This document shows positions 5,610-61,740 of a stretch of DNA of 64,000 nt, one piece after another; the stretch's first letter is position 1, and every line of letters starts with the position of its first letter. The stretch comes from Dictyophora rubrovolvata (Eukaryota; Basidiomycota; Agaricomycetes; Phallales; Phallaceae). The DNA lies in the NCBI GenBank assembly GCA_029959195.1, contig CP114122.1, positions 2,294,001 to 2,358,000 on the forward strand, given 5' to 3'. Made by a program: the position numbers and the translations under genes. The notes under the pieces are model-generated. The model had not been told where the DNA came from and did no database searches. It saw only the letters and a list, made by a program, of their open reading frames with translations.

Positions 5610-6250
5610 AACTCTTTTAGTCCTAAACCCTAAACATTTTACATCGACTTAAGCGCGTTATTTTTTTTTTACAAACGGCACGGTCTAACACGGAAGAAGT
5701 GGCTTGAAACATATTTCCAGCTTGAGAGATGACTTTGGGACCAAGAGTGGTTATCTGAAGATGTTTTCCGATGTCGCGCCAGCACCACGTCGTAGCACGG
5801 CTCTTAATTGACCCACTAGGAATCAGAACCGTGACTTCGCCGAATCCAACAAAAAACGCTACAATACATAACCGCGGTGTTTGAGGTTCAAATCAGTGCA
5901 AGTACGTTATCGTTTTTATTTCTGTAGTTTCAATTGATCGACTGTTTCTCTAGAAAACACGCTCCTCAATTGTGATTCAATTGTCCTAGGCCATCTCTGC
6001 CCCAAATTATTTCACTACTGAATTATCGTCCCACAACACAAGAAAATGAACACAAAAATACTTATCATTGAACATAGGCATAAAATAAATAATGACTGCA
6101 TCTATCAAAGACGCATCCTATTGTTTGAGAGTCGCTCCGGGCTAGAGAGGCCGAAGAGGCCATCCCAGTCAAGTGAACAATAATCTATTTTATTCCTGAA
6201 ATGTAAACTGACTACTTTATTAAGTCTACAATCAAAAGTAGCAGAAACGC

Positions 6251-6480
6251 ATATAAAATCCAGAGGGATCGACGGTGTTCGGACAGTTCAGTTTTTCATC
6301 ATTCCTCTCTTCCCCGCTCGGTCCAACATCATTTGGAGCAATTCCTCAGCTGCATTGGGTGAAGCGTGTCCTCCAAAGTGGTGGATTGGATAATGTAAGT
6401 CTTGTGATACTTATAGACTGTATACTTATGTTGTTGTAGATTATAGAATCAACTTACTCTGTGGCGTGTATATAACAAGG
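6251..6480 (+). ncRNA. Putative spliced non-coding leader RNA, copy A
   Basis: A TATA-like box ATATAAAAT (6251-6259) is followed by a pyrimidine-rich start region and an exon ending in a GTAAGT donor. The intron spans 6395-6439 (45 nt) and ends TTGTAG. Copies B and C have the same arrangement with an intron of exactly 45 nt. I see no ATG frame of useful length in the exon, so a short non-coding transcript is the simplest reading. It ends somewhere before the zinc-finger gene's own TATA box at 7109. Transcription is inferred, not shown. Confidence 0.4.
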
Positions 6481-6929
6481 TGGCGGATTAATACAAACAG
6501 TTTATTAATCATACGCCTGAGCGCTGGATAATAATCCCCGGTCGTAAAGCCACCGCGCCAGGGGCATACATCTAACTTTCTGATCGTACGTAAATAAACT
6601 GGCCACTCTTCTTGTAAGCCGTTCATTTCCCAATCAGTCAGAACAAGAAAACATCCCTTTGGTCGAAGGAACAACATAAATGCTGCTTATTCTTATTGAC
6701 AACAGATTTAGTTTCACACGCGTGCGAGGTCAATAAGGACCGTATAAATTCAATATGAAAAGGAACAGGAACCTGAGAGCTTTGGTCACGAACAAATGTG
6801 GACAGACAAGGACCACTCACTGACATGTGTTTTCTCTATTTTTTCTTCAGATAAACGCCACTCGATTTGTCTTGCTATATTAGGCATAGCCTTAGATCCT
6901 TACCCTGCAACCGTGAGTGAGTCCTTGTT

Positions 6930-7022
6930 GATCGAAACATGATGGGCCTTCGACACGTCGACGTCAGAGATCCTCCCTTTGAGCGATCTCTCATTTGTGG
7001 TCAATGTTGAATTTTTAGGGTG
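6930..7022. promoter_or_regulatory. Strongly conserved upstream block, copy A
   Basis: A block of about 90-100 bp is nearly identical in all three copies (also about 16615-16710, and 60905-61010 inverted). It contains the overlapping near-palindromes ACACGTCGACGT and the string GAGATCCTCCCTTTGAGCG. It lies about 200 bp before the zinc-finger gene start and is better conserved than much of the coding sequence. Confidence 0.5.
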
Positions 7023-7108
7023 ACTTGCGTGCTGTACTGGCCTTCGCGTAACGACGGCAAGCATTAGTACGCGGTCCTTTCTGAGTTAATGCGTCGCCGT
7101 TGCGTCTC

Positions 7109-7117
7109 ATATAAAAC
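7109..7117 (+). promoter_or_regulatory. TATA box of zinc-finger gene copy A
   Basis: The string CATATAAAA lies about 100 bp before the ATG at 7216. The equivalent box is found at 16796-16804 in copy B and at 60809-60817 in copy C. Confidence 0.5.
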
Positions 7118-7215
7118 GTACACTCTTTCTATGTCTGGTTTACAACAAGAATTTCTTCTTTACCACATTCATTGATCAACAACTATTCCCCCTCTCTTCC
7201 CCCTCTCTACCCTCT

Positions 7216-9445
7216 ATGTCATACCCCTCCAACAATAACGAGTGGCAGTCTGACCGTTTCAACGGTCGTTTGGAAGCCCCGCTTTTTGACGACTTCGAAA
7301 CTTACTTCGAAACTCAAATAGCTGGCCCATCTTCCCCCCCTAAACGTCCTATTCCGTCAAGCTCTAACCCAAACTCATGGTGCTCAGACGCGTCATCATC
7401 TTTAAACGAAAGCTCTTCATTCCCTTCGAGCGCATGGACACCGAACGCGTCCTCCTTGGATTTCCATTCCGTCTCAGGCAATTCTTCACAGAACTCGCTT
7501 CCTCCCTCGGCATTCGCGCCCCTAACTCAGAATGATTACGCCTTTCTGGCAAACATAGACCCCACACTTCTTGCTGCTGATCTTGCCAATGGTGAGCCCC
7601 TTCCAGATTTTTTTCTTCATTTTCGTTAACACTTTTTGTAGTTACAGCCAACCATTCTATACCAACCGTATCCGAGCCACTTGGGCACAGTTCACGCTCA
7701 AGAAAAAGACCTCGAGCAAATGAAGAGCCCGAAGGTCCTAATAACGCGTCGATCGACGCGTTTTCGAATCTTAAACGTCGTAGGCTGTTTACTGATGGCC
7801 ACCAAACTTTACCCAGTACGTCATAACGAGCTTTTTGAGGGCGATCTCATACATATTAATTGACGCGTTGTTGTCTCAGATGTTCCTCCTCCAAGAAATA
7901 CTTACAACAACGTTATGACAAATACCTTCAATGACTTTTGTAAGTGACAATAGATTTATCTTTTTATATTTTTGGATATTCTTCGACGTATTAATTAGCC
8001 TTACCGGCTTCAATTCCCCGCGCCAATACGACACTTTCGTCAACTCCTTATCCAGATCCCCAAATCTTTCACGGTATGTCTATCCACGCCTTGTGTAGTA
8101 AATGTTCATTGTTCAACGCGTGTCCAACAGGCGCACCTGCCTACTCCGTCCCGATTCCATCTGCTCTTCCAGTTCTTCTCCCGCCTGTTCATGTGGGTGC
8201 GAGGCAACCTGGTGCCACTGCACCTTATAGAACGGCGATCGACAACACAGCATGGTGGAACCCGAATGCGGACTTTTATACCCCTCTCGTCAATCTTTCG
8301 CCTCCCCAAGCTCCTGTTGCTACACCCGCCTATTTGCCCGGAGCTCGATTTTGTGCAAGTACTTATCCCGGAAATGAAGGCACAGTCGACTACACATTGG
8401 GATCAAATGGCAATGGAAACGGAGATCTATATAATAGTGGTCGGTCCTACTTTTATCTCACTCCAAATCTTTGACTGAACTGTCATGTGCAGCCGCTGGC
8501 ACCTCTGACGCGCTCCCCAATGCGGAAAATAGACCTCTTGATTGGACCACGGGTCTGCTAGGTCCAGAATACTTTTATAACACAACTGGTAAGTAATATC
8601 AATTTCATTATTGATTTGTTGAATTGATGAGTTATTGTGCCATACAGCCGTTGCTTCGGTTGGATCATCATCGGTTCAAGTTGTTCCGCCATTTTCGGAA
8701 CAACAAACCCCGGTATATCACACGAACGCAGTTGTAAACAGTGAGTCTCAACTTTATTTTAAATGTGAAGAGTCAGAATGACAAGGTCATATAAGATGCA
8801 ACCCACTTGAGTGTCGTCGACTTTCGTCAACACTCGGTCACCGACTACCAGATATCGACGACAGAGCATGTCGCAAATGAGACTATGCCCAACGCTCAAG
8901 CGCCTTCGACATCGGGGGCACCAAGTGTTGATCCTTTAGTCATCACTTATGAGTTAATCGAACCGTCAACCCCACCTTCTTCCCCCTCCCCGACTCGTAA
9001 ACGCCCTAAAAAACGTGAACCGACACTTTACCCAGATGAAAAGTTATGGTTCCTTGATAAAGACAAAAAATATGTTTGCCAATACAAGGGACCGGCCCGT
9101 CCAAAGGGCTGCAAACAAAAGTCGGGTACTCCACGAAATCTAGGTCGCCACATGCGCAAGCATGCTAAAAGTGAGGCAGGCATGCGAGATCTTTCACCGA
9201 ATGAAAGAGTGGCAATCAATGGTATGCCCGAGGGGCTGCTGAGGGTGAAAGCTGAATGTCGCCTCGCCAATGCCGATCTCCATCAGTGTGCTTTCTATCG
9301 TGAGCACGGCCGCCGCTGGGTCGTGATGACGATGGAGCGGCGAGAGAACTTGGAGCGGAAGCATAGGGACCGTGACCATGATGTTGATCAACAGCAGTCC
9401 GATCAGCGACAGTCCCCTCCACAGAAGAAGCGGAAAAAGGTTTGA
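7216..9445 (+). CDS. Zinc-finger-like putative transcription factor, copy A
   Basis: Eight exons (7216-7591, 7642-7815, 7880-7939, 7999-8073, 8131-8439, 8493-8588, 8648-8740, 8796-9445) give an uninterrupted 610-residue protein. The first two thirds are Ser/Pro/Asn-rich and disordered, as in fungal activators. A basic cluster SRKRPRANEE in exon 2 looks like a nuclear signal. The last exon has an atypical C2H2-like finger, C-x10-C-x12-H-x3-H, ending RNLGRHMRKH, and a strongly basic C-terminus QKKRKKV. In copies B and C a further Cys sits inside the long loop; here it is Ala. The product is probably nuclear and DNA-binding. The family is not one I can name. Intact reading through eight exons argues that it is functional. 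Confidence 0.75.
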
Positions 9446-10090
9446 TCCCTGTGTCTTTGGGCATGTCAAGAGCGTTCTCGTCAGAATCTATATTCATTAG
9501 TTTTTCCCCTTTTGATTTACTGTTAGTGTATAGTAGAATAATATCAGCAATCATGTACGAACACATACCATCATGTATTTTCATTTTCATTTTCATTTTC
9601 ATCGTTAGCATACCGTCCCGACCAACGACATATCGTGTATTCCCATCCTCTGTATTCATGTGCCTCTTTTTCGCTGGCTGTGATAGAAACAAAAGAGAAA
9701 CGTTCCAGTTTGAGCTTTTTGCAACAACAATAAAATCGTCTTATATATACGTTTGCGTCGAAACAATAAGAAAACAAAGGCTCAAAGGGCGTGTTGTAGT
9801 CGTGTATCGATCATTGGCCCTTTGTAAGTTGTTTGTAAGTAGGCCTTTGTGACTGTCACACCGAGCCGGTGGTCACGTGTGTAAATTGAGTAATCAAAGG
9901 TTCAGCGCTTCAGCAGTGCGCACCGTGTGCTCTCAGTCTCAAACACTACCTACTACAAGCCTACTATGAATAATGACACTATGTTGCGATAAGTTATTAC
10001 GACACATCACCGGAAATCAAAGCTAAATAGCGTAAGCTACATTTTGAACAAGCACATAGCTGATAAAAATTCCTGACCAGGAACGCCCGA
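9446..10090 (+). other. 3' region of zinc-finger copy A
   Basis: This is downstream sequence shared with copies B and C. It includes a short (TTTTCA)n microsatellite near 9575-9602 and an E-box string GGTCACGTG near 9869 that is kept in the other copies. No gene is visible. Confidence 0.5.
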
Positions 10091-10348
10091 GTACACAATT
10101 CCAAGCTTGCGGTAAACAGAGTGAACCCAGATATTCTCTACAGTACCTTGGTGTTAGCGGTTTACGACTCGACTCCTGTAAACACTACCTTGAAGATTTC
10201 ATATGTCTGTGATCATTGGAGAGAATCTGTGCTTTATGGGCTTTTGTAGACCTGAAAGCTCAATTCTCGATTTGTTCATGAACCGGTCCGGGAATGCTCC
10301 CCTCACTTTGTCACGGACTAACCGGCCTTAGCGTCGCGGTACTCTTAT
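10091..10348 (+). pseudogene. F-box gene remnant, copy A side
   Basis: The segment resembles the F-box region of the intact gene at 36062-37903: it starts at ACACAATTCCAAGCTTGCGG and continues through the CRHW-type region. The reading frame is broken by small indels, and the LRR part is missing because similarity ends near 10348. The same remnant, with more of the gene, follows zinc-finger copy B. Confidence 0.6.
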
Positions 10349-10695
10349 TTAATTGTATTGAGTTGGTGGAGTAACAGACTGCTGTCCATTCTCATGGTCA
10401 TGGGCTTAAAGGCTTCTTGACCATGGAGTTGGTGGAGCAGTAGTGAGATCTGACTTGAAATGGTATCAGATAAAAGAGCTTAGAGGATGAAGGAATACTA
10501 GCAGTTGGACAATGTACAGAGTGAGTCCTGAGGCCTGAATATTGAATGTTCGTTACCCGGTGCACTGAATGGTGCACTAGTTTGTCCACGTCTTTGTCCG
10601 TAGCTTATTTTTGCAATCAATCGCGTGAATCCGGATATACGATCGTCAGACTGAGTCTAAGAAGCAGTTCATCCCTCACCACCGGGTCATAGAAG
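10349..10695. mobile_element. Unmatched insert, possibly a Copia LTR relic
   Basis: Copy B continues with F-box sequence where this segment begins, so it looks like an insertion or a recombination edge. It repeats the string GAGTTGGTGGAG twice. It also holds TGGTATCAGAT (about 10459), which resembles the initiator-Met primer-binding site that follows Copia LTRs. No coding parts are present. If it is an LTR relic, it is old and incomplete. Confidence 0.2.
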
Positions 10696-10739
10696 ACGGA
10701 TGTATATAACAGAACAAAACGTACTAAGGTGTGTAACAA

Positions 10740-12610
10740 CAAAACTTGCAATGCGTCCTAATAACCAGCATACATGTATCAACCCAAAATGTTTTCTGTT
10801 CCTTGAGAAGCCTTCCACGTGTCTGGAGTCTGATATTCACATGATGTCAGAAGAATTTGCGAACCGGCTGGCCAGCCTGAGCTTACAGTTTGATTGGCAG
10901 CTCTTCGATATTTCACCCTACGAGCACACCATTCGCCAGCTGTAACACCTTTCGGTATACCATTAGGTATTCCGGTAGTCTGAATCTTCGAAGCAACCAG
11001 CGGCGAGTCCATAAGTGGTTCCATAATTGCCGTCGCGTGAGGTCTTTTTTTAACACGTCAATGAAGTATGCTGAAGAGGAGCTTTGGTCTGACATACCTA
11101 AGGAAATACACCAAGCTCCATCTCACATAGTCGCCTTGAGCTCCCGGAGCAGGTACCACTCGATGTATACTAGAACGTCTTCGCGACGAAAGTCTCAGAG
11201 ACTCAAAATGAATAGCGAAAAACCTGAAACTTACAAAATTCCTGCAGAATAGATAGACAATGCATCACCAATGTTACAGATGGCGTGTCCCTCAAGAGGC
11301 TGAAAGTATGATACAGAAGCCATCGATGATGGGAAATGCTATACACTTGCCTTGATATATTGCCATTCCTTAGAAATGGGATTCAGAACCTGCAATCCAC
11401 CAATAATATTATGATGTAGGAAGGACTGTATGGTAAAACGGCAACCAGAATCGGAATATTAGTCGCTTCAGTGGCTTGAAATGAAAGTCATGACTTGCCA
11501 AAGAACCAAAATCAGTATGAGCTCCCAATGATACTTTGTCGCCCGTAATAATTTTAGGTGGGTTACGAATAACTCTGCATTCACATCCGCTGAGGTCTTC
11601 AAATTTATGCCTGTCTTCCAAAATCTGGGCCGGTAACTCAAGGTATTCGTTTAAGATATCGAGCAAAGCCCGTAATACAGCATCCGAATCCCCAATGAAA
11701 TTTTGGATAGACGGCATTCGACTGGTCACGGTAGAAGGATATTCTCGGTGGATGATTCTAGGCCACGCCAGAGCATCGTCTTTAGATACGCTGCGTTGAT
11801 TTTAGTTTTTTCTTTACTCCGTCCAATGAAATACATACTTGATGAACTCTGTTGTATCCAATTGACCGTATTGGTCTCTATTTGCACCAGCGGCTTTATA
11901 TCTTGAAGAAACAAGAAACGAAAACCCCATTAAAATCAGCGCGTCTCGCCTAAGTCCTTGATTCTAGGAAACTACCCAAAGGAACGGCCCGTATCCCCTT
12001 GCTCAAACTTCATTTTCTCTTTGAGAGGGAGGGCCATCGTCGCCGCCCCCATTTCCCACATTGGTTGAATATCCACGTGATGATTTTTAAGACTATTTAA
12101 ACAACAGTCGAGAGCAATTACTGTAGAAAGCAAGGTAACGCACTAGAAAAACCCTAAGGACGTGCATGCTTTCCAGAAAGTATCCTAGATGAACATGAGC
12201 GAAAAATGAGCATACGTACCAAGACGTGGAACATACGTACTTTTTCGGATTTAACCCCTTGTTTCAGCTTTTCATAATCAATAACAAGCAGTGGGTGGGT
12301 TGGGACGTCTTCTGGAAATGGCGGTATATCCTGAACCTTGCTCATAAGTGTGAACGCACGAGGCGGCTGATTATAACCTGAAACAAGACCGATTATATGT
12401 AATTACCGTGCTCCATCGTCGTGTGATCGCAGCTGCCGGATGAATGGAAGAGCGGCACCAGAGAAGAGAAGAATTTGAAACGAACACTTGCATTAAGATT
12501 CGTCGACTTGAAAGTGTGTGAGTATCGTGACTTATAATTTGGAAAAGTTTTCACATGAAAAAATTAGCGCAAGTATGAGATCCATTACAGGCAGCGGAAA
12601 TCTCCGGTCA
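10740..12610 (-). repeat. Duplicated dioxygenase segment, copy 1
   Basis: This segment is nearly identical to 24155-26010, including introns and about 250 bp of upstream sequence. The similarity starts close to the stop codon and ends upstream of the gene, so the gene was copied with its promoter. Confidence 0.8.
10779..12345 (-). CDS. 2OG-Fe(II) dioxygenase, IPNS-like, copy 1
   Basis: Ten exons encode a protein of about 345 residues of the isopenicillin-N-synthase/clavaminate-synthase-like superfamily. The N-terminus carries the DIPPFPEDVPTHPLLVIDY region. The iron ligands are visible as HTD (about residues 199-201) and a His in SIHRVV (about 257), and the 2-oxoglutarate-binding RxS as RWS. 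Such enzymes use Fe(II), oxygen and 2-oxoglutarate to oxidise small molecules in the cytosol; the substrate cannot be told. Two introns (11426-11498 and 11300-11350) only splice in frame if the donor is GC (GCAAGT). The gene looks intact and is a recent duplicate of 24196-25760. Confidence 0.85.
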
Positions 12611-14622: not shown

Positions 14623-15079
14623 GGAACCAGGAAAATAATTAAACTTTGAAATCTCATAGTTACTTAACAGAATAGAACCTGCTTTCTGAGCTCTTCTTCG
14701 TGTGATCGATAATTGAATCGGCCCCGGTTCTGAATTGAAAATCAACTTTCGGAACGACAGTGTCGAGTCACTAATACCTAGCATTCTGCAACAGCAAAGT
14801 TCCCTTGAACGTACTCACAAATGCACTAGTTAACATCTGAAGGTTGCGACATTGGCAGTCACCTTTCAAACCAATAGTTTGTATTTGGCGATCATAGATT
14901 CATATCATATCGTGGGATTCGTGGTTAAATCACATATTATAACCTGCGGATTTCAAAGGATAAACGTCCTTTTTTATTTGCTCAAAACTAAGCCGGCCAT
15001 TTTCAGAAATTGGGTTGGCACAGGCTTTGCTACAACATGTATCAATTATCTCAAAGTATATTGAAAAAAGCCTCGCTCT
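14623..15079. other. Intergenic, no gene seen
   Basis: Low-coding sequence follows the Fe2OG gene. Its reverse-strand open frames show no motif. The left edge of duplicated segment B begins just after. Confidence 0.4.
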
Positions 15080-15283
15080 TTTAGTCCTAAACCCTAAACA
15101 TTTTACATCAGACCTAGGCACGTCATCTTTACAAACGGCAAGGTCTAACGCACAAGGAATGGCTTAAGACATATCATCAGGCTATAGGATTAGTTTGGAA
15201 CCGATAGTGGCGTCGAAGATTATCTGAAGATGTTTTCCGATGTCGCGCCAGCCGTCGTGGTACGGCCCTTTATCGACCTGTCC

Positions 15284-15478
15284 GTATAGTCAACCAATCT
15301 TTCCCCCCACTATTAGATAATCTACATTGTGTGAGTAAGGTATTGGCTTAATAGATAACTTCACCTCTTCTTTAGTTGTCTGTAGGACGACTAAAGAAGA
15401 GGTGACGCGCTTAGTAGACGCGATAATGGGCGTGGTGCCGGCGCTCATTTTCCAACACGCACGGAACTCAACATAGGC
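15284..15478 (+). repeat. Hairpin repeat, copy 1 (inserted in segment B)
   Basis: The core is a stem of two 19-nt arms (15362-15380 and 15386-15404) with one mismatch and a 5-nt loop. It is followed by GACGCGCTTAGTAGACGCG. Homologues lie at 40450-40560 and, inverted, at 46500-46640. Segment A lacks the whole stretch at the corresponding place, so it behaves like a small mobile element. The family is not recognised. Confidence 0.55.
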
Positions 15479-15944
15479 GACTAGGAATCAGAACCGGGAG
15501 ACTTCGCGGCGGCTCCCCGAATCCGACAAAAAACGCTGCAATACACAGCTGCAGTGTTCGAGGCTCAAATCCACAAGTACGTTATTGTTTTTATTTTTGT
15601 AGTATCAATTTTGAATTGATTAATTGTTTCTCTAAGAAAACACGCTCCTCAATTGTGTGTCAATTGTCCTAGGCCATCTCTCTGCCCCAAATTATTTCAC
15701 TACTGAATTATCGTCCCACAGCACAGGGAAATGAACAAAAAAAACACAAAAATGTTTATCGTTGAACATGGGCATAAAATAAAAAATGACTGCATCTACT
15801 AAAGACGCATCCTATTGTTTGAGAGTCGTTCCGGGCTAGAGAGGCCGAAGAGGCCATCCCAGTCAAGTGAACAATAATCTATTTTATTCCTGAAATGTAA
15901 ACTGACTACTTTATTAAGTCTACAATCAAAAGTAGCAGAAACGC

Positions 15945-16175
15945 ATATAAAATCCAGAGGGATCGACGGTGTTCGGATAGTTCAGTTTTTCATCATTCCT
16001 CTCTTCCCCGCTCGGTCCAACATCATTTGGAGCAATTCCTCAGCTACATTGGGGTGCAGCGTGTCCTCCAAAGTGGTGGATTGGATAATGTAAGTTTTAT
16101 GATACTTTTGGACTGTATACTTATCCTCTCGTAGATCATGGAACTAACTTATTCTGTGGCGTGTAAATAGCAAGG
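15945..16175 (+). ncRNA. Putative spliced non-coding leader RNA, copy B
   Basis: The TATA-like box is at 15945-15953, the GTAAGT donor at 16090, and the intron 16090-16134 is 45 nt long and ends CGTAG. It corresponds to copy A and copy C. The only ATG frame after the splice encodes ten residues and is not kept in copy A. Confidence 0.4.
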
Positions 16176-16614
16176 TGGCGGACTAATATAAACAGTTTAT
16201 TAATCACGCCCGTGAGCGCTGGGTGATAATCCCCGGTCGTACAGCCACTCCAGGGGTATACATCGAACTTTCTGATCGTACGTAAACTGACCACTCTTCT
16301 TGTAAGCCGTTCATTTCCCAATCAGTCAGAACAAGAAAAACATCCCTTTGGCCAAAGAAACAACATAAATGCTGCTGATTCTTATTGACAACAGATTTAG
16401 TTCCACACGCGTTCAATGTCAACAAAGACCGCATAAATTCAATATGAAAAGGAATAAGAACGAGACTTTGGTCACGAAGGAAAAATGTGGACAGACAAGG
16501 ACCACTCACTAACATGTGTTTTCTCTATTTTTTCTTCAGATAAACGCCACTCGATTTGTCTTGCTATATAAGGTATGGCCTTAGATTCTTACCCTGCAAA
16601 CATGAGTGAGTCCT

Positions 16615-16710
16615 TGTTGATCGAAACATGATGGACCTTCGACACGTCGACGTCAGAGATCCTCCCTTTGAGCGATCTCTCATTTGTGGTCAATGTTGAA
16701 TTTTTAGGGT
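16615..16710. promoter_or_regulatory. Strongly conserved upstream block, copy B
   Basis: This is the near-identical counterpart of 6930-7022, with the same ACACGTCGACGT core, and lies about 200 bp before the zinc-finger start. Confidence 0.5.
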
Positions 16711-16795
16711 GGTTTGCATGCTGTCCCAGTGTCCTTAACGACGGCGGCAGCATTACGCGGTCCTTTATCTGAGTTCATGCATCGCCGTTGCGTAT

Positions 16796-16804
16796 CATAT
16801 AAAA
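16796..16804 (+). promoter_or_regulatory. TATA box of zinc-finger gene copy B
   Basis: CATATAAAA lies 110 bp before the ATG at 16906, in the same setting as in copies A and C. Confidence 0.5.
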
Positions 16805-16905
16805 GAACGCTCTATCCATGTCCGGTTTACAACAAGAATATCTTCTTTACCACGTTCATCCATCGACAATTATTCCCCTTCCATTTCCCCTCTCTAACCC
16901 CTGCG

Positions 16906-19144
16906 ATGTCATACCCCTTCAAATACAACGAGCAGTCTGACCATTTCGACGTACCTTTGGAAGCTCCTTCTTTTGAGGACTTCCAAAGTTATTTCGAAGC
17001 TCGACTCTCTCACCTCCCTCAAACAGCTAGCCCACCTTTCCCCTCAGGCTCTAAACGTCCTCAGCAACTTCCATCTATCATCCAATCAGCCTCTAACCCA
17101 AATACATGGTACTCAGACGCGTCGTCGTCTTCGAACTCCCGCCCCATTTCAGGAACTTATTCGTTTCCGTCGAGCTCACAAACATTAGACGTGTCACCTT
17201 TGGGTCTCTTTTACGAGCCAAACACCTCTTCACAAAACACGCATCCGCCACCGTTTGTGCCTTCAACTGAGGATGATTGCACCTTTCTTGAAAACTTAGA
17301 TCCATCGCTTCTTGACACGGATATTATCAATGGTAAGTCGTATTCAGAATTGTTCTTTCATTTATTAAACACTCTTTTTAGTCATCAACAATCCCTCATT
17401 ATCATACATTCCCGAGCCGGTCGGACACGGCTCTTCTCCCTCAAGAAAAAGACCCCGTGCAAATGAAGCACCCGAGCCTAATAACGCGTTTTCGAATCTG
17501 AAACGTCGTAGGGTGTCTACTAATGGTCACCAAACCTTACCCAGTACGTCATAAAAAGCCTTTTTGGGCGCGATCTCATTAATTGACGCGTTATTGTCTC
17601 AGGTGTCCCTCCTTCAACAAATACTTGCAGCAACAACAACGTTATAACAAATACCTTCAATGGCTTTTGTAAGTGACAATAGATTTTATATTTTCATATT
17701 TTTGGATGTTGAGTACGATATTCTTCGATGCATTAGCCTTACCGGCTTCAACCTCTCATGCCAATACGACGCTTTCACCAACCCCTTATCCAAATCCCCA
17801 AATATTTCACGGTATGTCTACGCCCTGTTTAAAAATATTTGTTCATCTTTTGACGTGTGTCCAACAGACGCACCTGCTCATCCCGTCCCCTTTCCACCTG
17901 CTCCAGTTCTTCTCCCGCCTCTTCATGTGGGCGCGACTCAACCTAGTGCCACTGCCCCTTATAGAACGGCGATCGACAACACGGCATGGTGGAATCCAAA
18001 TGTGGACTTATATGCCCCTCTCGTGGGCCTTTCGCCTACCCCTCCTGTTGCTATTCCGCCCGCCTATTTGCCCGGAGCTCAATTTTATCCAAATGCTTAT
18101 GCCGGAAATGAAGGCACGGTCGAATACACATTGGGATTAAATGGCAATGGAAGCGGAAATTTATACAACGGTCGGTCCTACCTCTATCTTATTCCAAACC
18201 TTTGACTGAACCATCATGTGCAGTAGCAGGAGCCTCTCAGGCTGATGTGCTCCCGTTGTCATATTTCAGGCTCCCCGATGCGGAAAATGGACCTCTTGAT
18301 TGGACTACGGGTCTGCTAGGTCCAGAGCACTTTTATAACACCACTTGTAAGCGTTTTTTCATTTCATTAGTGATCCGTTGAATTGACGAGTTGTTGTGTA
18401 TAGCCGGTGCTTCTGTTGCCTCATCATCGGTTGTTGTTCCGCCGTTTATGGAACAACAAAATCACACAAACGCGGTTGCAAACAGTAAGTCTCAACTTTA
18501 TTTTGAATGTGAACAGTCAAATTGACAAGGTCATATAAGATGCAACCCACTCGAGTGTTGTCGACTTTCGTCAACACTCGACACCTACCAACCAGATATC
18601 GACGACGGAGCATGTCGCAAATGCGACTATGCCCAACGCTCATGTGCCTTCGACATCGGGGGCACCAAGTGTTGATCCTTTAGTCATCACTTACGAGATA
18701 ATCGAACCGTCAAACCCACCTTCCCCCTCCCCCACCTGCAGCCCCAAGCGCAAACGCGCCAAAAAAAGCGACCCCGCAGTCTACCCAGATGGAGACCTAT
18801 GGTTCTCTGAAGGCAAACAATTTTTTTGCCGTTACAAGGGGCCGGACTGTCCAGAGGGTTGCAAAGAAGAGCTGAATTCTCCATCTGCACGCAATTTAGC
18901 TCGTCACATGCGCAGGCATGCTAAAGGTGAGGCAGGCATGCGAAATCTTCCAGCGAATGAAAGAGTGGCCTTCAATGCCTTGTTGCCCCAGGGACTGCTG
19001 AGAGTGAAAGCGAGGTGTAAGCTCGCCTCTGCCCAACTCCACAAGTGCGCCTTTTATCGTAAACATGGCCGTCGCTGGGCCGTGATGACGATGGAGCGGG
19101 CAGAAAATTTGGAGCGGAAGCACAAGGCATACCACGATCCCTGA
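16906..19144 (+). CDS. Zinc-finger-like putative transcription factor, copy B
   Basis: Eight exons (16906-17332, 17382-17543, 17603-17668, 17737-17811, 17868-18170, 18224-18346, 18404-18484, 18540-19144) give an uninterrupted 613-residue protein. Exon 1 is close to copy C and clearly different from copy A. The exon-2 basic cluster SRKRPRANEA is kept. The finger region reads CRYKGPDCPEGC, then RNLARHMRRH, with two extra residues between the last Cys and first His compared with A and C. The protein ends at KAYHDP and lacks the lysine/arginine tail of A and C, so nuclear import may depend on exon 2 only. The start at 16906 follows from the conserved MSYP start; an in-frame ATG further upstream lies before the TATA box. 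Confidence 0.75.
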
Positions 19145-19789
19145 TCAACAGTCTCATCCGCAGGTTTGATCCTCGTGTCTTTGAGTTCGGTGTCAAGAGC
19201 GTCTGTCAGATTCATCTATATTTATTAGTTTTTTCCTCTCTTGATTTACTGTCAGTTTTGTAGTAGAATAACACCAGCAATCATGTACGAACACATACCA
19301 TCATGTATTTTCATTTTCATTTTCATCGTTAGCATACCGTTCTGTACCAACGACATACCATGTATTCCCATCCTCATCACTGTATTCATTTGTACCTCGT
19401 CGTCGTTGGACCGCAATAGAAACAACAAAAGAGAAATGCCCCAGTTTGAGTTTTTTGCAGCAACAATAAGATCGCCTTATATATACGTTTGCGTCGAAAC
19501 AAAAAACACAAGGGCTCAAAGGGCGTGTGTAGTCGTGTGTTTAATTTTTACTGGCCCTTTGTAATCAGATCCAGGCCTTTGTCTGACGTCATAGCCGGTG
19601 GTCACGTGCGTAAATTGAGTAATCAAAGGTCAGCGTTCCAGCTGACTTGCAAGTTGTCATTGTCAAACACTACCTACTATGAACAATGACATTATGTGGC
19701 GATAAGCCATTACGACACATCACCGAACATCAAAGTAAGATACATTTTGAACACATAGCTGATAAAGAATTCCTGACCTTGTCCTGACC
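19145..19789 (+). other. 3' region of zinc-finger copy B
   Basis: The region parallels 9446-10090, with the TTTTCA microsatellite and the GGTCACGTG string. No gene was seen. Confidence 0.5.
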
Positions 19790-26010: not shown

Positions 26011-26242
26011 AAATCTATCCCCTTGCATGCAATGTTGGTACTTTATCCTCCAATTAAATGTTTTGCCGAGAAAAGGATTAGATTCTATTATACTGCATTG
26101 ACCGCTATGAAAATGACTCATGATAATTTGTTCGAACAAGCACAGACGAAGAAAAGTATTGATTATAGTAATAGACGTACGAATGTGTCTAGGGCTATTA
26201 CACCTTTAGGATAGATGCAAATTCTATAACATGACTTTTAAA
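26011..26242. other. Intergenic, no gene seen
   Basis: Unassigned AT-rich sequence between the promoter of dioxygenase copy 2 and the membrane-protein gene that converges on it. Confidence 0.4.
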
Positions 26243-41400: not shown

Positions 41401-41499
41401 TACCACACATCACCGAACGTCAAAGTGAAATAGTGTAAGTTACACTTGAACACGCACATTTGAACGCGCACGTATCTGATCAAAATCTCCTGATTGGCA

Positions 41500-49269: not shown

Positions 49270-49787
49270 AGCGCAGTGATAGGCGCATGTAACAATATAG
49301 AGGCGCAAAATCATTTGTACTCAAATCTATCCGTTCAGATGTTCAAATATTCAAATCTCAGGCTCGAGTCCTCTCAGATTTGCATATAAAGAGTATTTCC
49401 TTGCATGTAATGTGTCGCAAAAATTTAAAATCCTAACGCCCCAATTTATTAGCCAAATCGATAAAGGCTCTGACAAGCTTTATAAACAGTTTATTTACCA
49501 TTTATTTACCATTTATAAAGTCAGAGCCTTGATCGATCAGAATATTTACTCTTACTCAAAGCATGTCGTTTTATCGTTTCTTTCTTTAGCTGGCTCAGTT
49601 AAAAGTTTCTTATCAAAAACGCAAATCTTCATTCGATTCCTGTACGAACATCTTTCAGTCAATTTCTCAAAGGACCTGCGTACAACGTATATGTAACCCT
49701 AACTATAATGATGATGTACACACGTGATGGACGCTTGCAAGGAATTTGGCATCCCAAAATACCTCTAGTTTTCTCCCTTGGAATCGT
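49270..49787. other. Intergenic between dehydrogenases 1 and 2
   Basis: Not repeated elsewhere in the array. AT-rich, with chance open frames only, ending at the TIR element. Confidence 0.4.
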
Positions 49788-50202: not shown

Positions 50203-50374
50203 TAATAATAATTACTCAGGCTCATCGAATGAGTAATTTAATGCACGGCGGTTCCGTGTTCGGCTCGGCGGAACTGCTGTGCAAGGCCATACAAGGCCGT
50301 ACCACATCTCTAAACAGACGATGAGGATCAGATATCAGATTAGTCTACAACGGTCAACCCCTCTCACAGTTGAC

Positions 50375-51543
50375 CATGTCTACATCTACAAAGCAATTGG
50401 TCTGGCTAATTACCGGAACATCGTACGCCGTCGTGAATCTCGTCCTCCACATCTCAGTGCTCATTACTTCACCATGTAGCACGGGTATAGGCCGCGAACT
50501 CACATTAGCTGCCCTAAAACGAGGCGAAAAAGTGATAGCAACAGCTCGCAACATCTCCAAAATCGATGACTTGAAAGAAGCGGGTGCTGATATTCTTCAA
50601 TTGGATGTTACGGACCCACTCGACAGGCTGCATGCTATTGTGAAAGAGGCTGTTCAGATTCATGGTCGTGTCGATGTTTTGGTAAATAATGCTGCTTATG
50701 TTAATTTTGGCGCTTTGGAGGAGGATACGTAAGGCGTTTTAATTTCTTTTTCCTTGTGCGCTGACATACACATATTTATGGCATGGTTTGTAGTCCTGAA
50801 GAGTCTTTTAAACAATACAAGTTAAGGCTAATCTTTAAAGCTTACTGTATTCACAATATGCTGACGCGATTTTAATTAGTACGAACATATTCGGAGCACT
50901 GAACACCATTCGTGCAGTCTTGCCCTATATGAGGGCTCAAAAATCGGGAACAATTGTGTGGGTGGGTTCTGTAGGTGGATGGGGCGGAACATTAGGTTGC
51001 GGGCTTTACGTCGGTACAAAGTTCGCTATACGAGGTATGTATTTAGGTCTTGAATTTTTGTTGTCATGTCAAGTCATGAAATTGTCTGTCTAGGTTTGTC
51101 AGAGACGTTGCATATGGAAATTGAACCGTTAGGTTTGAGAAGTATTTGTTTTGAGGCTGGATATTTTAGGACGGCGTTACTTGAGGACGGACATCTTGGG
51201 GCGTATAACCCCCGTATAACGGATTACAATGAAATAACAAAGAGACAGTACGACGCTTTCGAAGGTATGCTTTTTTCTTCGTCGGCCGCGACACACGTTC
51301 TGACACGACGAATTCCCCAAAGCTTACAACGGAAGACAACCCGGTGATCCTAAAAAGCTTGCTCAAGTATTTCTTGACGTTGTACGTCAAGAAGGGGTTG
51401 CTCAAGGACGAGAAATACCTTTGGCTCTTCCACTGGGAAGCGATTGCTTGAAAGGTGTTCAGAACACTTTGAATAGGACTTCGAAGGTTCTGACAGAGTG
51501 GGAGGATGTTATAAAGGGAACCGATTTTCCTGATGGATATTAA
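50375..51543 (+). CDS. Short-chain dehydrogenase, tandem copy 2
   Basis: Six exons in the same positions as copy 1, about 289 residues, intact. TGTSTGIG, NNAAY, the serine in WVGS and YVGTK are present. It is closer to copy 1 than to copy 3 in exons 2-4 (for example the shared GTTAAG donor). It ends TAA, where copies 1 and 3 end TGA. Upstream sequence from about 50220 repeats that of copy 1. The same enzyme class and unknown substrate apply. Confidence 0.85.
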
Positions 51544-52738
51544 AGCGCAGTGAAAAGTCGAGATGGGCGCATGTGACAATACTAGAGCCGCAAAATCTTC
51601 TGTACTTTAATTCATCTATTCCGCATCTGCACATAAAGATTCGCTACAGTGACTTGTAAGTATACACAGATTAGGATGACATATCAATTAGTTGTGACCA
51701 ACTGTTTCCCTTCGTGATTACACGTGTGCTTGCCTTGGCCAACGCACATCCTGCCACCAAAAACGCGAATGCACTTGCCGTTCATATTATAATAGGGAAA
51801 GATTGGTTTCCCTTTTTTTCGGGATAAGTTGTTACACACTTTCACATTTAGTAAAATCGCGGCCGGTTTGGCAGTTCAACTCGTCCAGCCGTGTGGTATA
51901 GCGACGCATATAGCGACATTGAAGTCATTAATTTGGGTCTCGGATCTCGGAGGTTCTTGCCTTTACTGACGACGATGAATTGATGACGGTCGTTTCAGAC
52001 ACGGTGCCGATATCATTATTGCCTGCTGAAGCTGAAAGCTCGGGTAATTTCAAATTGTTTTATCAAGGCATGTTGACGTATCGTATTATATCGGATGTGG
52101 GGTGAGTAGGTATTCCGAGTCAGTTGTGAAGTTTCTTTTCTCACTTTCAAAAAAGAGATGCCGTATACGTACGTATGTAGTTCTTGGCATGAACACGCTT
52201 CCACCTTTGACAAGCCTAGAAGTATTTTCAGCCGAATCCAAACATATCCATTCTGGCTGTCAACGAACGCAACAAAAGTGGCTTAATAACCTCCTCCTAA
52301 TTTTATGAGTATTACGTTAATTGCACCTCGCTGTGACTCAGTGACGCATCAAGTTCTCCGAAAACTCAACAAAAGAGCTTCTATCGGAGAATAGACTCGG
52401 AGGATTTTTACCAAAATAGGCAAGGAGCCGCGAGCTCTCGCATCAAGTATTGTCTTTCGCTGCAGCCATCGAGCCAATGGGAGAGGCTGACCTTCTTTTC
52501 TCTTTTGCGTAATTCAATTTTTCGGGTACCGATCTAGAAGATGGTTTTTCAAATGAGATTTTGATTTAGAAGATGATGAACGGACTCCACAGAGAATTGC
52601 AAATTGCAGGATTTTCTCACCATGAGGTTTTGATAAGCAAGCCAGGTTTGAGCTGTAAGTTCAGATATATAAAGGATCCCGATTTGAGTGTAATCCTTCA
52701 GAACAATTTCTCAAATAACAAACAGCCTCTTACAGGAC
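51544..52738. other. Long spacer between dehydrogenases 2 and 3
   Basis: About 1.2 kb with no supported gene. Short open frames near 52016-52308 lack motifs. The last 60 bp contain the AGATATATAAAGG TATA-like box (about 52663) of copy 3. Confidence 0.4.
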
Positions 52739-53888
52739 ATGTCTACGTCTACGAAGCAATTGGTCTGGCTAATCACCGGAACATCGTACGCCGTCATAAA
52801 TCTCATATTCTACATTCTGCTCATTAACCCTCTGGACATCTAGCACGGGTATAGGTCGCGAACTCACGTTGGCTGCTTTAAAGCGAGGCGAAAAAGTTAT
52901 AGCAACGGCTCGCAACATCACCAAAATCAATGACTTGAAAGAAGCGGGTGCCGATATTCTTCAATTGAATGTTACGGATCCGCTAGACAAGCTGCATGCC
53001 GTTGCGAAAGAGGCTGTTCAGATTCATGGTCGTGTTGATGTTTTGGTTAATAATGCTGCTTATATTGAAGTTGGTGCTTTGGAGGAGAACACGTAAGGCG
53101 AACGCATTCTCTCGTGCGCTGACATATAAAATTCATGGTACGATTTCTAGTCCTGAAGAGACCTTTCAGCAATACAAGTAAGGCTAATGTTTGAAAGCTT
53201 ACTGTATTCACAATATGCTGACGCAGATTTGGATTAGTACAAACATATTCGGAACACTGAACACTACTCGTGCAGTATTACCCTATATGAGAGCCCAAAA
53301 ATCGGGAACAGTCGTATGGATAGGTTCTTTAGGTGGATGGCGCGGATCTGCAAATGCCGGGCTTTACGTCAGTACAAAGTTTGCTACACGAGGTAGGTCT
53401 TGTGCCTAATTGAACGCGTCAAGTCCATGAAATGGTTTGTCCAGCTTTGTCCGAGACGTTGCATTATGAAATCGAACCGTTGGGTTTGAGAAGCATTTGT
53501 TTTGAGCCTGGGTATTTCAGAACGGCGTTACTTCAGGACGGACATCGAGGATCGTATAACCCCCGCATTGCGGATTACAATGAAATAACAAAGAGACAGC
53601 ACGACGCTCTCGAAGGTATGTTTTTTTGAAGATTTTTCTTTTCGTGACACATGACGAATTTCAAAAGCTTACAACGGGAAACAACCCGGTGATCCCAAAA
53701 AACTTGTCCAGGTGGTTCTGGACGTTGTGCGTCAGGAAGGAGTCGCTCAAGGACGAGAAATACCTTTGGCTCTTCCGCTTGGAAGCGATTGCTTGAAGGG
53801 TGTTCAGAACACTTTGAATAGGACATCGAAAGTTCTGACGGAGTGGGAGGATGTCATAAAAGGAACTGATTTTCCTGCTGGATATTGA
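52739..53888 (+). CDS. Short-chain dehydrogenase, tandem copy 3
   Basis: Six exons give 289 residues. TGTSTGIG is at 13-20, NNA at 85-87, Ser138, Tyr151 and Lys155 form the catalytic set (YVSTK). The C-terminal half with FRTALLQDGHRGSYNPR is somewhat diverged from copies 1 and 2. All splice sites are GT-AG with GTAAGG/GTAGGT-type donors. It is the most diverged member of the array, which suggests it is the oldest split or under different selection. A stray piece of a fourth copy lies inverted at 57728-57815. Confidence 0.85.
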
Positions 53889-54468
53889 AGCTGTTGTATC
53901 TAGTTGTTGAACCTGTGCTATACTTAGACCAATGACAAATCAGGGCAAGCGCCTTGTATAAATGTTCAAACTCCGAAGACTACACCGTACCCGAAAATAA
54001 CATGACTTGGGAAAAAAAATTGAGTCAAGTCGAGAAAAGAAGCTCGACAGATTTTCCAGCTTCCCATGCCATCCGTGATCAACGTTTAGTTATCCGTTTC
54101 CTTTTATTTGGCTTTGCTTATCGTATGTCCTTCTTATTGTCACTGCTGATACTGCGCAGTTTGTACAGGGAAGGTTTCTAACTGACCCTGTTTTCTCTCT
54201 GGTTCTCCTCAGTATCGTACGTTCAATTTCGTGGCCGAGAATTCAATTATACAAGGTATGTTACATATACCTGTATTTTGATATAACAGCCGTTATGAGA
54301 AGGCTAGTCTATTTGAATCGATCGCTCTCCGATACCGGACTCGGATCGGTGCTGTCTGTGCGCGTGAGGGTGTTTGGCCCTTGTTACGGACAACAAAATC
54401 TACTTACAGCAAGCAAGCCGCAACGAGATACGCCCAGAAGCCCCGTTACGAGCCGTTGAGAACGACAA
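53889..54468. other. Intergenic, promoter of the 54469 gene
   Basis: No gene is supported. A short frame at 53954-54181 is hydrophobic at its end but has no homology I can see. Confidence 0.35.
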
Positions 54469-57815: not shown

Positions 57816-58398
57816 GCTTCCCGTTCTGTGCTTTGACATCGTCATTCCAGAAACTCAGTAGGAAATATTTTAGACAGACCATCGAGAGAAACGACTCGTA
57901 TTTCCGTGATTTATTCATAATCCGCGATCCTGGGATTATACGGCTTACAATAACCTTTTAAAAGCAGTGGATAGTAGGATAAGAGTGCGCGTCGGGCTGG
58001 CGTTTGATTACTCAATCTAGGCACGTGACCGCCGGCTCAGGCATGACAAAGGGCAGTAAACGATCGATACACGACTACGCACGCCCTTTGAGCCCTTGTT
58101 TTTTGTTTCGACGCAAACATATATATAAGGGGTTCTTATTGTGCTCAAACTGGAGCGTTTCTCTTTTGTTGTTTCTATCACCGTCAGCGATGAGGAGGCA
58201 TATGAATACAGAGGATGGGAATAAATGGTATGTCGTTGGTACAGGACGGTATGCTAAATGAAAATACATGATGGTATGTATTGGTACATGATTGCTGATA
58301 TTATTCTACACACTGACAGTAAATCAAAAAAGAAACAACTAATGAATATAGATAAATCTGGCGAAGACGCTCTTGACATCGATCCAAAGACACGGTGA

Positions 58399-60708
58399 TC
58401 AAACCTTTTTTTTTCGCTTCTTCTGCGGACGGGACTGTTGTTGATCAGGACCGTGGTTTGAGTCGTTGTGTTTCCGCTCCAAATTATCCTCCCGCTCCAT
58501 CGTCATCACGACCCAGCGACGGCCATGTTCACGATAGAATGCACACTGATGCAGTTTGGCATGGGGGAGTTTACACCCCGCTTTCACCCTCAGCAGTCCC
58601 TCGGGCATGGCATTGATTGCCACTCTTTCATTGGGTGAAAGATCTTGCATGCCTGCCTCAGTTTTAGCGTGCTTACGCATGTGACGACCTAAGTTTCGTG
58701 GCGTATCTGACTTTTGTGCGCAACCCTCGGGACAGCCCGGTCCCTTGTAGCGGCACACAAATTCATCACCTCTACGAAACCATAGCTTTTCATCTGGGTA
58801 AAGCGTGGATTTACGTTTACGCTTGGGGCTGCAGGACGGGGAAGGGGAAGAAGGCGGGGTGGGTTCGAGGATTTCATATGTGATCGTAAGAGGATCAACA
58901 CTTGGTGCCCCCGATGTCGAAGGCACCTGAGCATTGGGCATAGTCGCATTTGCGACATGTCCTCTCGTCGAGATCTGTGTGGTGGTGTCTGAGTGTTGAC
59001 GAAAGTCGACGACACTCGAGTTGGTTGCATCTTATATGGCCTTGTCATTCTGACTGTTCATATATAAAAATAAAGTTGAGACTTACTGTTTGCAACCGCG
59101 TTTGTGTGATATACCGGGGTTTGTTGCTCCAAAAACGGCGGAACAACTTGAACCGATGATGATCCAACCGAAGCAACGGCTGTACACAATGACTGGTCAA
59201 CTCAACGAATCAATAATGAAATTGAAATCACTTACCAGTGGTGTTATAAAAGTGTTCTGGACCTAGCAGACCCGCAGTCCAATCAAGAGGTCCATTTTCC
59301 GCATCGGAGAGCGTGAAATATGACAATGGGAGCGCATCAGCCTGAGAGGGCCCTGCGGCTGCACATGATAGTTCAGTCAAAGGCTTAGAATAAGATAGAA
59401 GTAGGACCGACCATTATATAAATCTCCGTGTCCATTGCCATTTAATCCCAATGTGTATTCGACTGCGCCTTCATTTCCGGCATAAGCATTTGGATAAAAT
59501 TGAGTTCCGGGAAAATAGGTGGGCGGAATGGCAACAGGAGGGGGAGGCGAAAGGTTGACGAGAGGGGCGTATAAGTCCACATTTGGATTCCACCATGCAT
59601 TGTTATCGATCGCCGTTCTGTGAGAGGCAGTGGGACTGGGTTGAGTCGCACCCACATGAAGAGGCGGGAGAAGAACTGAAGGAGTAGGTGGAAGGGGGAC
59701 GGAATGAGTAGGTGCGTCTGTTGGACACGCGTCAAAAGATGAACATATATTAAACGGGGCGTAGACATACCGTGAAAGATTTGGGGATTTGGATAAGGAG
59801 TGGATGAAAGTGTCGTATTGGCGCGGGGGGTTGAAGCCGGTAAGGCTAATACGTCGAAGAATATATATTGTACTCAACATCCAAAAATATAAAATATAAA
59901 AATAATTGTCACTTACAAAAGTCATTGAAGGTATTTGTCATAATATAGTTGTTCTTGTTGTTGTTGCTGTTGTTGTAAGCATTTGTTGAAGGAACACCTG
60001 AGACAACAACGCGTCAATGAATGAGATCGCGCTCAAAACGCTTTTTATGACGTACTGGGTAAGGTTTGGTGACCATTAGTAGACACCCTACGGTGTTTAA
60101 GATTCGAAAACGCGTCGATCGACGCGTTATTAGATTCGGGTGCTTCATTTGCACGGGGTCTTTTTCTTGAGGGAGAAGAGCCGTGTCCGACCGGCTCGGG
60201 AATGTATGATAATGAGGAGTTGTTCACAACTAAAAGCGTTTAATAAATGAAAGAACAATTCGGTATATGGCTTACCGTTGATAATATCCGTGTCAAGAAG
60301 CGAGGGTTCTAAGTTTGCAAGAAAGGTATAATCATCCTCAGTTGAAGGCACAAACGGTGGCGGATGCGTGTTTTGTGAAGAGGTGTTTGGCTCGTAAAAG
60401 AGACCCAAAGGTGACACATCTAATGTTCGTGAGCTCGAAGGAAACGAATAAGTTCCTGAAATGGGGCGGGAGTTCGAAGACGACGACGCGTCTGCCAGTG
60501 AGTACCATGAATTTGGGTCAGAGGCTGATTGGATAGAAGGAAATTGCTGCTGAGGACGTTTAGAGCCTGAGGGGAAAGGTGGACCAGTTGTTTGAGGAAG
60601 TTGAGAGAGTCGAGCTTTGAAGTAACTTTGGAAGTCCTCAAAAGGGGGGGCTTCCAAAGGTACGTCGAAACGGTCAGACTGCTCGTTGTATTTGGAAGGG
60701 TATGACAT
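58399..60708 (-). CDS. Zinc-finger-like putative transcription factor, copy C
   Basis: Eight exons (60708-60276, 60229-60056, 59997-59917, 59845-59771, 59717-59412, 59358-59236, 59179-59087, 59030-58399) give an uninterrupted 638-residue protein. Exon 1 matches copy B closely (MSYPSKYNEQSDRFDVPLEA). The last exon resembles copy A (TLYPDEKLWF, then RNLGRHMRKH, LSPNERVAIN and a basic C-terminus PQKKRKKKV). The finger keeps all three cysteines (CRYKGPGCPEGC) and both histidines, so this copy is the most complete. It also has an Asn-rich expansion in exon 3. A nuclear, DNA-binding role is inferred from composition and motif only. Confidence 0.78.
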
Positions 60709-60808
60709 CGCAGAAGTCAGAGGGAGGGAAGAGAAGGGGAATAATTGTTGATAGATGAACGTGGTAAAGAAGAAATTCTTGTTGTAAACCGGACATGGAT
60801 AGTGTCTG

Positions 60809-60817
60809 TTTTATATG
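60809..60817 (-). promoter_or_regulatory. TATA box of zinc-finger gene copy C
   Basis: CATATAAAA on the minus strand, about 100 bp before the ATG at 60708. Confidence 0.5.
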
Positions 60818-60904
60818 ATACGCAACGGCGATGCATGAACTCAGATAAGGGACCGCGTAGTGCTGCCGCCGTCGTTAAGGACACTGGGACAGCATGCAAA
60901 CCAC

Positions 60905-61010
60905 CCTAAAAATTCAACATTGACCACAAATGAGAGATCGCTCAAAGGGAGGATCTCTGACGTCGACGTGTCGAAGGTCCATCATGTTTCGATCAACAAG
61001 GACTCACTCA
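60905..61010. promoter_or_regulatory. Strongly conserved upstream block, copy C
   Basis: Inverted counterpart of 6930-7022 and 16615-16710, with the same ACGTCGACGTGT core. Confidence 0.5.
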
Positions 61011-61419
61011 TGGTTGCAGGGTATGGATCTAAGGCCATACCTAATATAGCGAAACACAAATCGAGTGGCGTTTATCTGAAGAAAAACACATGTTAGTGAG
61101 ATCCTTGTCTGTCCACATTTTTCCTTCGTGACCAAAGTTTTGTTCCTGTTCCTTTTCATATTGAATTTATGCGGCCCTTATTGACATCGAACGCATGTGA
61201 AACTAAATCTGTTGTCAATAGGAATAAGCAGCCTTTATGTTGTTTCTTTGACCAAAGGGATGTTTTTCTTGTTCTGACTGGTTGGGAATGAACGGCTTAC
61301 AAGAAGAGTGGTCAGTTTACGTACGATCAGAAAGTTCGATGTATACCCCTGGCATGGCTGTACGACCGGGGATTATTATCCAGCGCTCACAAGTGCGATT
61401 AATAAACTGTTTATATTAA

Positions 61420-61645
61420 TCCGCCACCTTGCTATTTACATGCCACAGAGTAAGTTCTATGATCTACAGGAGCATAAGTATACAGTCTATAAGTACCATA
61501 AAACCTACATTATCCAATCCGCCACTTTGAGGGGAACGTTGCACACAGAACAGCTGAGGAATGTTGAAAGTTGTGAGCCGACCGGGGAAAGAACGATGCA
61601 AAACTAAACTGTCTGAAAAACGTCTGTTCCGCTGGATTTTATATG
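61420..61645 (-). ncRNA. Putative spliced non-coding leader RNA, copy C
   Basis: TATA-like box on the minus strand at 61645-61636, donor GTAGGT at 61508, intron 61508-61464 of 45 nt ending CTGTAG. The exon sequence has diverged more than the intron edges and spacing. Confidence 0.35.
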
Positions 61646-61740
61646 CTTTTTTACAACTTTCAATTGTAAACTTGATAAAGTAGTCAGTTTACGCTTCAGG
61701 AATAAAATAGATTATTGTTCACTTCACTGGGATGACCCCT

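Follow-up and report, generated by a model that had tools for sequence, protein, structure and literature searches.

Dispersed intact copies of an atypical C2H2-like finger gene and their conserved upstream kilobase in Dictyophora rubrovolvata

The window analysed here, a stretch of 64,000 nucleotides from Dictyophora rubrovolvata, contains three intact copies of a finger gene. We consider it probable that they belong to a family of nuclear DNA-binding regulators, in which segmental duplication and gene conversion have spread the genes along with a long promoter of their own. The conservation of the DNA upstream of these genes is a stranger feature than the genes themselves, and was overlooked by the original prediction: the upstream kilobase shows about the same degree of conservation as the coding sequence, and between old and new paralogues it is conserved beyond third codon positions.

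Copy A (7216-9445, forward strand) is modelled with eight exons, at 7216-7591, 7648-7815, 7880-7939, 7999-8073, 8131-8439, 8493-8588, 8648-8740 and 8796-9445, encoding 608 amino acids. Copy B (16906-19144, forward strand) has exons at 16906-17332, 17382-17543, 17603-17668, 17737-17811, 17868-18170, 18230-18346, 18404-18484 and 18540-19144; its 611 residues are without the C-terminal basic tail. Copy C lies on the reverse strand (58399-60708), with exons at 60708-60276, 60229-60056, 59997-59917, 59845-59771, 59717-59412, 59352-59236, 59179-59087 and 59030-58399, and encodes 636 residues. According to a splice-site search, each copy has seven introns of 46-71 nt, all GT-AG, and a single open frame. 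This confirms three intact eight-exon copies, two direct and one inverted. The open frames predicted earlier also stand, but each protein is two residues shorter than the 610, 613 and 638 given for them.

Three is, however, an undercount for the genome, where we find eleven close or older members and one outlier. There are eight close copies, dispersed over four contigs: seven are intact (A-F and H) and one is broken (G). The copies outside the window, D, E, F and H, have open eight-exon models like those of A, B and C, and all seven intact close copies keep seven introns. G carries stops, and in its pairs 9-11 of 16-19 indels shift the frame; where both copies are intact, the figure is 2-9 of 8-28. 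Beyond the close copies there are three older intact paralogues (I, J and K), whose models are open despite a protein identity of 41-46% to A, C and H. The genome further contains a single open frame of greater divergence and a distantly related sister family. No title found in a literature search names the A/B/C family.

The proteins end in a two-finger module, located by alignment at 9026-9379 in A (forward; start obtained by manual counting from the end coordinate), 18779-19138 in B (forward) and 58453-58803 in C (reverse), where it runs from LYPDEKLW to NLERKHNDSNH. Eight candidate zinc ligands, forming two Cys2His2 sets, are conserved in all 13 aligned domains, and 36 columns are invariant in an alignment of 11 family sequences. 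Like the C2H2 fingers described by PF00096 and PF13909 (zf-H2C2_5), finger 1 ends in C-x12-H-x3-H with an RNLxRH helix pattern in most members. However, over the family it reads C-x10-14-C-x12-16-H-x3-H, which departs from the PF00096 spacing C-x2,4-C-x12-H-x3,5-H: the first two cysteines are at least 10 residues apart rather than 2-4, and the second finger has a wide and variable spacing. B, C, E and F have a third cysteine within the first gap of finger 1, which is absent from the other members.

In a Pfam search of the three window proteins no model reached its cut-off. The closest model was PF13909, against which the copy C query scored 24.8 bits (E 1.7e-5, curated cut-off 27), and 14.3 against PF00096 (cut-off 25.2), and full-length proteins scored lower against the finger models than this query. 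The earlier description of the finger as unusual is supported. The best PDB profile match has an E-value of 0.22. In an AlphaFold model of the three window sequences the strand-helix order agrees with a beta-beta-alpha fold, but the model is not reliable (mean pLDDT 37.9). From the residue pattern we infer that this C-terminal pair of atypical C2H2-like fingers binds zinc and DNA. The long N-terminal region, low in complexity by eye, has acidic and hydrophobic patches and basic clusters; the protein would be nuclear and may act in transcriptional activation.

The coding sequences are under purifying selection on average in the family. Among the six intact close copies A-F, whole-protein dN/dS is 0.35-0.49 in all 15 pairs, and thus not near 1, a value that the original prediction had named as evidence against itself; one newly relaxed copy would be compatible with such pairwise averages. 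Over the finger end dN/dS is 0.08-0.44, below that of the rest of the protein in 12 of the 15 pairs, while in three of the five pairs that include B it is not lower. Further, codon position 3 is the most changed, and indels are mostly multiples of three, in every intact pair compared.

The retention of intact copies under constraint is supported; the earlier interpretation as a whole, with selection on dosage or diversification, is supported in part. The finger-1 residues predicted to contact DNA, assigned by a residue-to-base mapping, are identical in all 13 aligned domains, and this speaks against a diversified DNA specificity. Such constancy suggests one DNA element recognised by all copies, with the differences between them lying mainly in the N-terminal regions, in expression or in dosage. 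In the KRAB zinc-finger clusters of mammals, duplicated finger genes are kept intact and the finger contact residues diversify; the present family is similar in its duplicated intact genes but differs in its constant predicted finger-1 contacts.

The conserved, apparently non-coding upstream region covers 6120-7215 for A (forward), 15815-16905 for B (forward) and 60709-61773 for C (reverse). Two predicted TATA boxes and two leader-intron signatures align across the members. In A the distal TATA is at 6250-6259, leader intron 1 at 6395-6439, leader intron 2 at about 6586-6705 and the proximal TATA near 7109. The corresponding positions are 15944-15953, 16090-16134, about 16278-16394 and near 16797 in B, and 61636-61645, 61464-61508, about 61209-61324 and near 60816 in C. 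Over the members the distal TATA is found at -913 to -1050 and the proximal at -85 to -109.

When A, C and H are compared with I, J and K (9 pairs of 21 possible), the upstream kilobase is 62-68% identical, while codon position 3 is 40-47% and single-base shuffles 40.5-42.5% identical. As a control we used three SDR-like tandem duplicates in the window, whose genes are 83-88% identical and whose upstream kilobases are 43-44% identical, the level of the one shuffle made per pair; in the first 300 upstream bases one of these control pairs shows 60.5% identity. Upstream DNA is not the only part conserved: between the deep branches of the family the first 300 downstream bases have an identity of 50-59%, against 41-44% for shuffles, and the raw identity of the first and the last intron is 42-62%. 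In several pairs the upstream and 3' flanks are more conserved than the coding sequence. This does not hold for C with E or F, and pairs with B are excluded from the claim as they are confounded by conversion. In the recent group the upstream region of C is less similar than its introns (91.7 against 97.5% with E, 92.1 against 95.4% with F). An upstream coding exon or conserved upstream open reading frame was rejected: judged by eye, the copies do not share a frame and numerous indels are not multiples of three.

In the preferred reading this region would work as a long promoter, in which a distal start feeds a spliced leader and a second start lies at the proximal TATA. A further, tentative reading, which we hold as possible rather than probable, is that the roughly 1-kb region forms a regulatory cassette, comprising both core promoters and the spliced leader, that is under constraint equal to that of the coding sequence and through which the paralogues share input. 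Alternatively, the upstream kilobase could be a separate non-coding RNA gene or a structured leader and not promoter DNA. The distal TATA and the two aligned intron signatures, far from the start codon, fit such a gene. However, Rfam searches of the window, and of 60700-61850 with E values as high as 1 allowed, are empty; further, a consensus fold of ten upstream regions shows little covariation, which contributes -4.43 of -64.69 kcal/mol, and 11 of 123 pairs show a double change. We find this alternative unlikely.

Copy B is clearly a mosaic: its upstream part is A-like and its core resembles C, E and F. The break has a z of 12.9, where permutations reach 4.6 at most, and is seen in both triples tested, and B is placed differently in the protein and upstream trees. 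Gene conversion has contributed to the present sequence of B. A break also marks the departure of E from F (z 6.5, maximum 4.7). Such observations would fit ectopic conversion that keeps the copies intact by overwriting, with little selection on each copy. Against this stand dN/dS below 0.5 in every pair, the excess of changes at codon position 3, the predominance of indels in multiples of three in each intact pair, and the still open frames of the distant I, J and K, and we regard it as rather improbable.

The block around A (5612-10349, forward) matches that around B (15076-20100, forward); around C the part common to both extends over 57996-61773 (reverse). In the main match of each of the three pairs, identity is 78.7-84.4% over alignments of 3.9-4.8 kb, far above chance. 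Neighbouring F-box genes had been described as dead. An F-box-like frame at 36047-37903 is open (Pfam E 0.0017, below cut-off); related stretches at 9982-10229, 19695-20985 and 41385-41604 are shorter. By eye, duplicated neighbours at 10.7-12.6, 22.0-23.5 and 24.2-26.0 kb resemble 2OG-Fe(II) oxygenases.

Divergent pairs share a unit of near-identical extent. It begins at about -1.1 kb, or at -1.4 kb when both members are from the set A, B, D, G and H, and it reaches about +2.6-2.9 kb; beyond it, most of the fetched flanks show no extra similarity of at least 100 bases (blastn). Together with the eight close copies on four contigs, and flanks that outdo coding conservation in several pairs, this could indicate a mobile or selfish element, either a transposon gene or a driver-like multicopy gene, with conserved ends needed for movement; but we think this very improbable, as inverted repeats of at least 14 bases are absent from the A block and none bracket the B or C units, Pfam finds no transposase, integrase or other mobile domain when run on the full-length proteins of A, B and C, the ends of the recent copies C, E and F are ragged and different (C and F share 5.3 kb, C and E extend to +4.9 kb), and upstream matches outside the close copies are limited to I, J, K and one 49-base match on C8. 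A match to a known transposon protein, which the original prediction had also named as speaking against it, is likewise missing from the Pfam results. A tRNA-like sequence at the -1400 junction was rejected, as ARAGORN finds no tRNA in the window. Retroposition is dismissed by the retained introns. In the preferred reading, of regulators that spread with their promoter, DNA-level duplication would have carried the copies to at least four contigs, each with its introns and some 1.1 kb of the DNA upstream of it.

A survey of Flammulina filiformis lists 58 C2H2 genes and kept only proteins with C-X2,4-C-X12-H-X3,4,5-H (PMC11433517). Both sets are C2H2-type finger proteins of a mushroom-forming fungus that are taken as nuclear regulators; however, that survey reports no duplication among its C2H2 genes, and duplication is what chiefly marks the present family. 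By the survey's spacing rule the A/B/C family would be passed over.

If the cassette reading is true, the paralogues would probably cross-regulate or self-regulate through the upstream region. In general, surveys that require canonical spacing, like that of F. filiformis, would omit genes of this type, and a whole expanded group of probable regulators can thereby remain unnamed. Paralogues whose upstream DNA has outlasted third codon positions offer a ready system for examining the constraint that fungal promoters place on regulators after duplication.

The zinc-finger family is real, and it is larger than first reported. When the window is compared with itself, a duplicated block appears three times, in direct orientation around the gene copies A (7216-9445, plus strand) and B (16906-19144, plus strand), and inverted around C (58399-60708, minus strand). 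A splice-site search, with an open frame imposed as a condition, gives 8 exons and 7 GT-AG introns in each, with proteins of 608 (A), 611 (B) and 636 (C) residues. This agrees with the three eight-exon genes with full open frames of the original prediction. Other genes in the window are also repeated: three related 2OG-Fe(II)/isopenicillin-N-synthase-like genes were recognized by eye from LGAHTDFGSL-type motifs (10735-12603, 22006-23473 and, on the minus strand, 24152-26016), the first and third being 90.6% identical. Further, an F-box-like open frame (36047-37903; Pfam match below the cut-off) has shorter relatives at 9982-10229, 19695-20985 and 41385-41604, two of them within the A and B duplicated blocks.

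The host genome measures 28.2 Mb in 11 contigs, with the window on contig C6 (C6:2294001-2358000). We searched it for family members with three kinds of query: the gene, the flanking DNA and the C-terminal end. Close copies with the same 8-exon open model as A-C were found on contig C2 (D, 2911154), contig C6 (E, 376343; H, 2079190) and contig C3 (F, 676789). Another close copy, G (contig C7, about 1083.2-1084.5 kb), is broken: stops interrupt its frames, there are frameshifting indels, and part of the middle is unalignable. Since A-F and H are open and G is interrupted, seven of the eight close copies are intact. Three older paralogues also have open models, although these are automatic and their exon boundaries less certain than in the close copies: I (contig C6, about 2379.6-2382.2 kb; 725 residues, 9 exons), J (contig C7, about 628.8-631.4 kb; 712 residues, 10 exons) and K (contig C6, about 2451.1-2453.7 kb; 694 residues, 11 exons). 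Their proteins match residues about 142-207 of C, a basic segment, twice, an internal duplication relative to the close copies. A more divergent open frame of 258 residues, M, lies near 95 kb on contig C9. The claim of three intact copies thus holds within the window, but genome-wide the family is bigger (eight close copies, I, J, K and M).

The finger sequence comes from the last exon and reads LW...C-x-YKGP...GC...RNLxRHxRxH, followed by a linker and C...C...G-x-RW...R...H...H. In the alignment of this two-finger module 36 columns are invariant across 11 members, and the eight candidate zinc ligands are kept in all 13 sequences when two sister sequences are added. In the first finger 10-14 residues lie between the first two cysteines, and 12-16 between the second cysteine and the first histidine. 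The spacing departs from that of the canonical C2H2 finger, so the finger is indeed unusual, as was first proposed. If helix positions are assigned from the first histidine backwards, following the scheme of classical fingers, positions 2, 3 and 6 carry R, N and R in 13/13. Zinc-finger matches in Pfam are all below threshold, NCBIfam gives no relevant match, and the best match of a PDB profile search has an E value of just 0.22. A structure predicted from the three window sequences has a mean pLDDT of 37.9, too low for use.

Using the domain of M as query, a distant sister family was found at six places in the same genome (C9:1534103, C9:1538023, C9:1682703, C9:1691239, C3:158093 and C11:644206; E 0.0015-0.047, 29-36% identity), and a seventh place is broken and weaker (E 0.09). 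The full domain is in an open frame at all four of the six places examined. The main-family profile matches two aligned sister sequences with E values of 2.3e-7 and 7.6e-7 (search space 20,000). The sister family is likewise multicopy and dispersed.

The original prediction had suggested comparing synonymous and non-synonymous change. For the 15 pairs of A-F, dN/dS (Nei-Gojobori) is 0.35-0.49, not near 1, at dS 0.056-0.459; such pairwise rates are no proof of selection on each single copy. Over the finger end dN/dS is 0.08-0.44, and lower than in the rest of the protein in 12 of the 15 pairs, the others being B/C, B/E and B/F. The five pairs with B have finger-end values of 0.32-0.44, against 0.08-0.28 in the ten others. 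A basic tail is present in A, C, D, E and F; B and H are without it. Codon position 3 is the most variable in every intact pair compared, and its excess over position 2 is 1.6-2.6-fold in intact pairs versus 1.2-1.6-fold in comparisons with G.

B is A-like at 0.96 of informative sites upstream of about -820 (relative to the start codon), and thereafter F-like, with 0.29 A-like. With A and F as parents the breakpoint scores z 12.9, where the highest value in 1000 permutations is 4.6; for D and C the two figures are 11.3 and 4.6. A and B also have their 3' flank in common to about +3.1 kb, and C, E and F are without it. Breakpoint and flank suggest that B arose by duplication of the A locus and that sequence from the C/E/F side replaced its core; its finger end closely resembles neither. 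B groups with C/E/F in the protein tree (100/100), and in the upstream tree it branches off outside C/E/F, at an open fork. E breaks too, against F and A (z 6.5, maximum 4.7), and three of six triples have no significant break (C with E/A, C with F/H, A with D/C).

Over the last 1.1 kb or so before the start codon the copies are alignable and well conserved. Comparison across the deep split (A, C and H against I, J and K) gives the clean test: in these nine pairs the upstream kilobase is 62-68% identical, where five single-base shuffles of each pair give 40.5-42.5%, and coding identity is 56-60%, 63-68% and 40-47% at codon positions 1, 2 and 3. Conservation extends, at a lower level, to the 300 bases downstream (50-59% identical, against 41-44% in shuffles). 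For the first and last introns identity is 42-62%, a range given without shuffle control. As a control, three tandem SDR-like genes at 48101, 50376 and 52739 (48080-49321, 50355-51606 and 52726-53891; by eye, STKQLVWLITG) are 83-88% identical, while their upstream kilobase, at 43-44%, is no more alike than a shuffle (one for each pair); within the nearest 300 bases, one of these pairs reaches 60.5%. A weaker comparison is one pair of sister genes (C9:1682703 and C9:1691239): all they share is a 1.37-kb block around the domain, 86.6% identical, so they would have no long upstream region in common. Against this reading, introns are better conserved than upstream DNA in C/E and C/F.

Downstream of a distal TATA box (-913 to -1050) the alignments show a short segment resembling an intron, bounded by GT..AG, or by GC..AG in J. 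In J the donor and acceptor of a second such segment survive, with most between them deleted and about 44 nt left. Nearer the start codon, at -85 to -109, is a proximal TATA box. By strict patterns the distal box is found in 10 of 11 copies (D has a variant) and the proximal one in 10 of 11 (absent from the broken G). Putative leader intron 1 is found in 8/11 by the strict pattern, in B and C by a looser one and in D by eye; the donor of leader intron 2 is found in 9/11, and in D and G by eye, and its acceptor in 11/11. Rfam gives no family match in the upstream region, and covariation in the consensus fold is slight. An inverted repeat, AGAGATC...GATCTCT (columns about 941-971 of alignment A3), lies upstream of the close copies and is imperfect in I, J and K; it is possibly a protein-binding palindrome.

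Our literature search, judged by titles, found no paper on this family. A Flammulina C2H2 survey admits only C-X2,4-C spacing and reports no duplicated C2H2 genes (PMC11433517).

In general, the family probably consists of regulators with an atypical two-finger module, whose proteins would bind zinc and DNA and may activate. Its most surprising part is the long conserved upstream region, which would serve as promoter.
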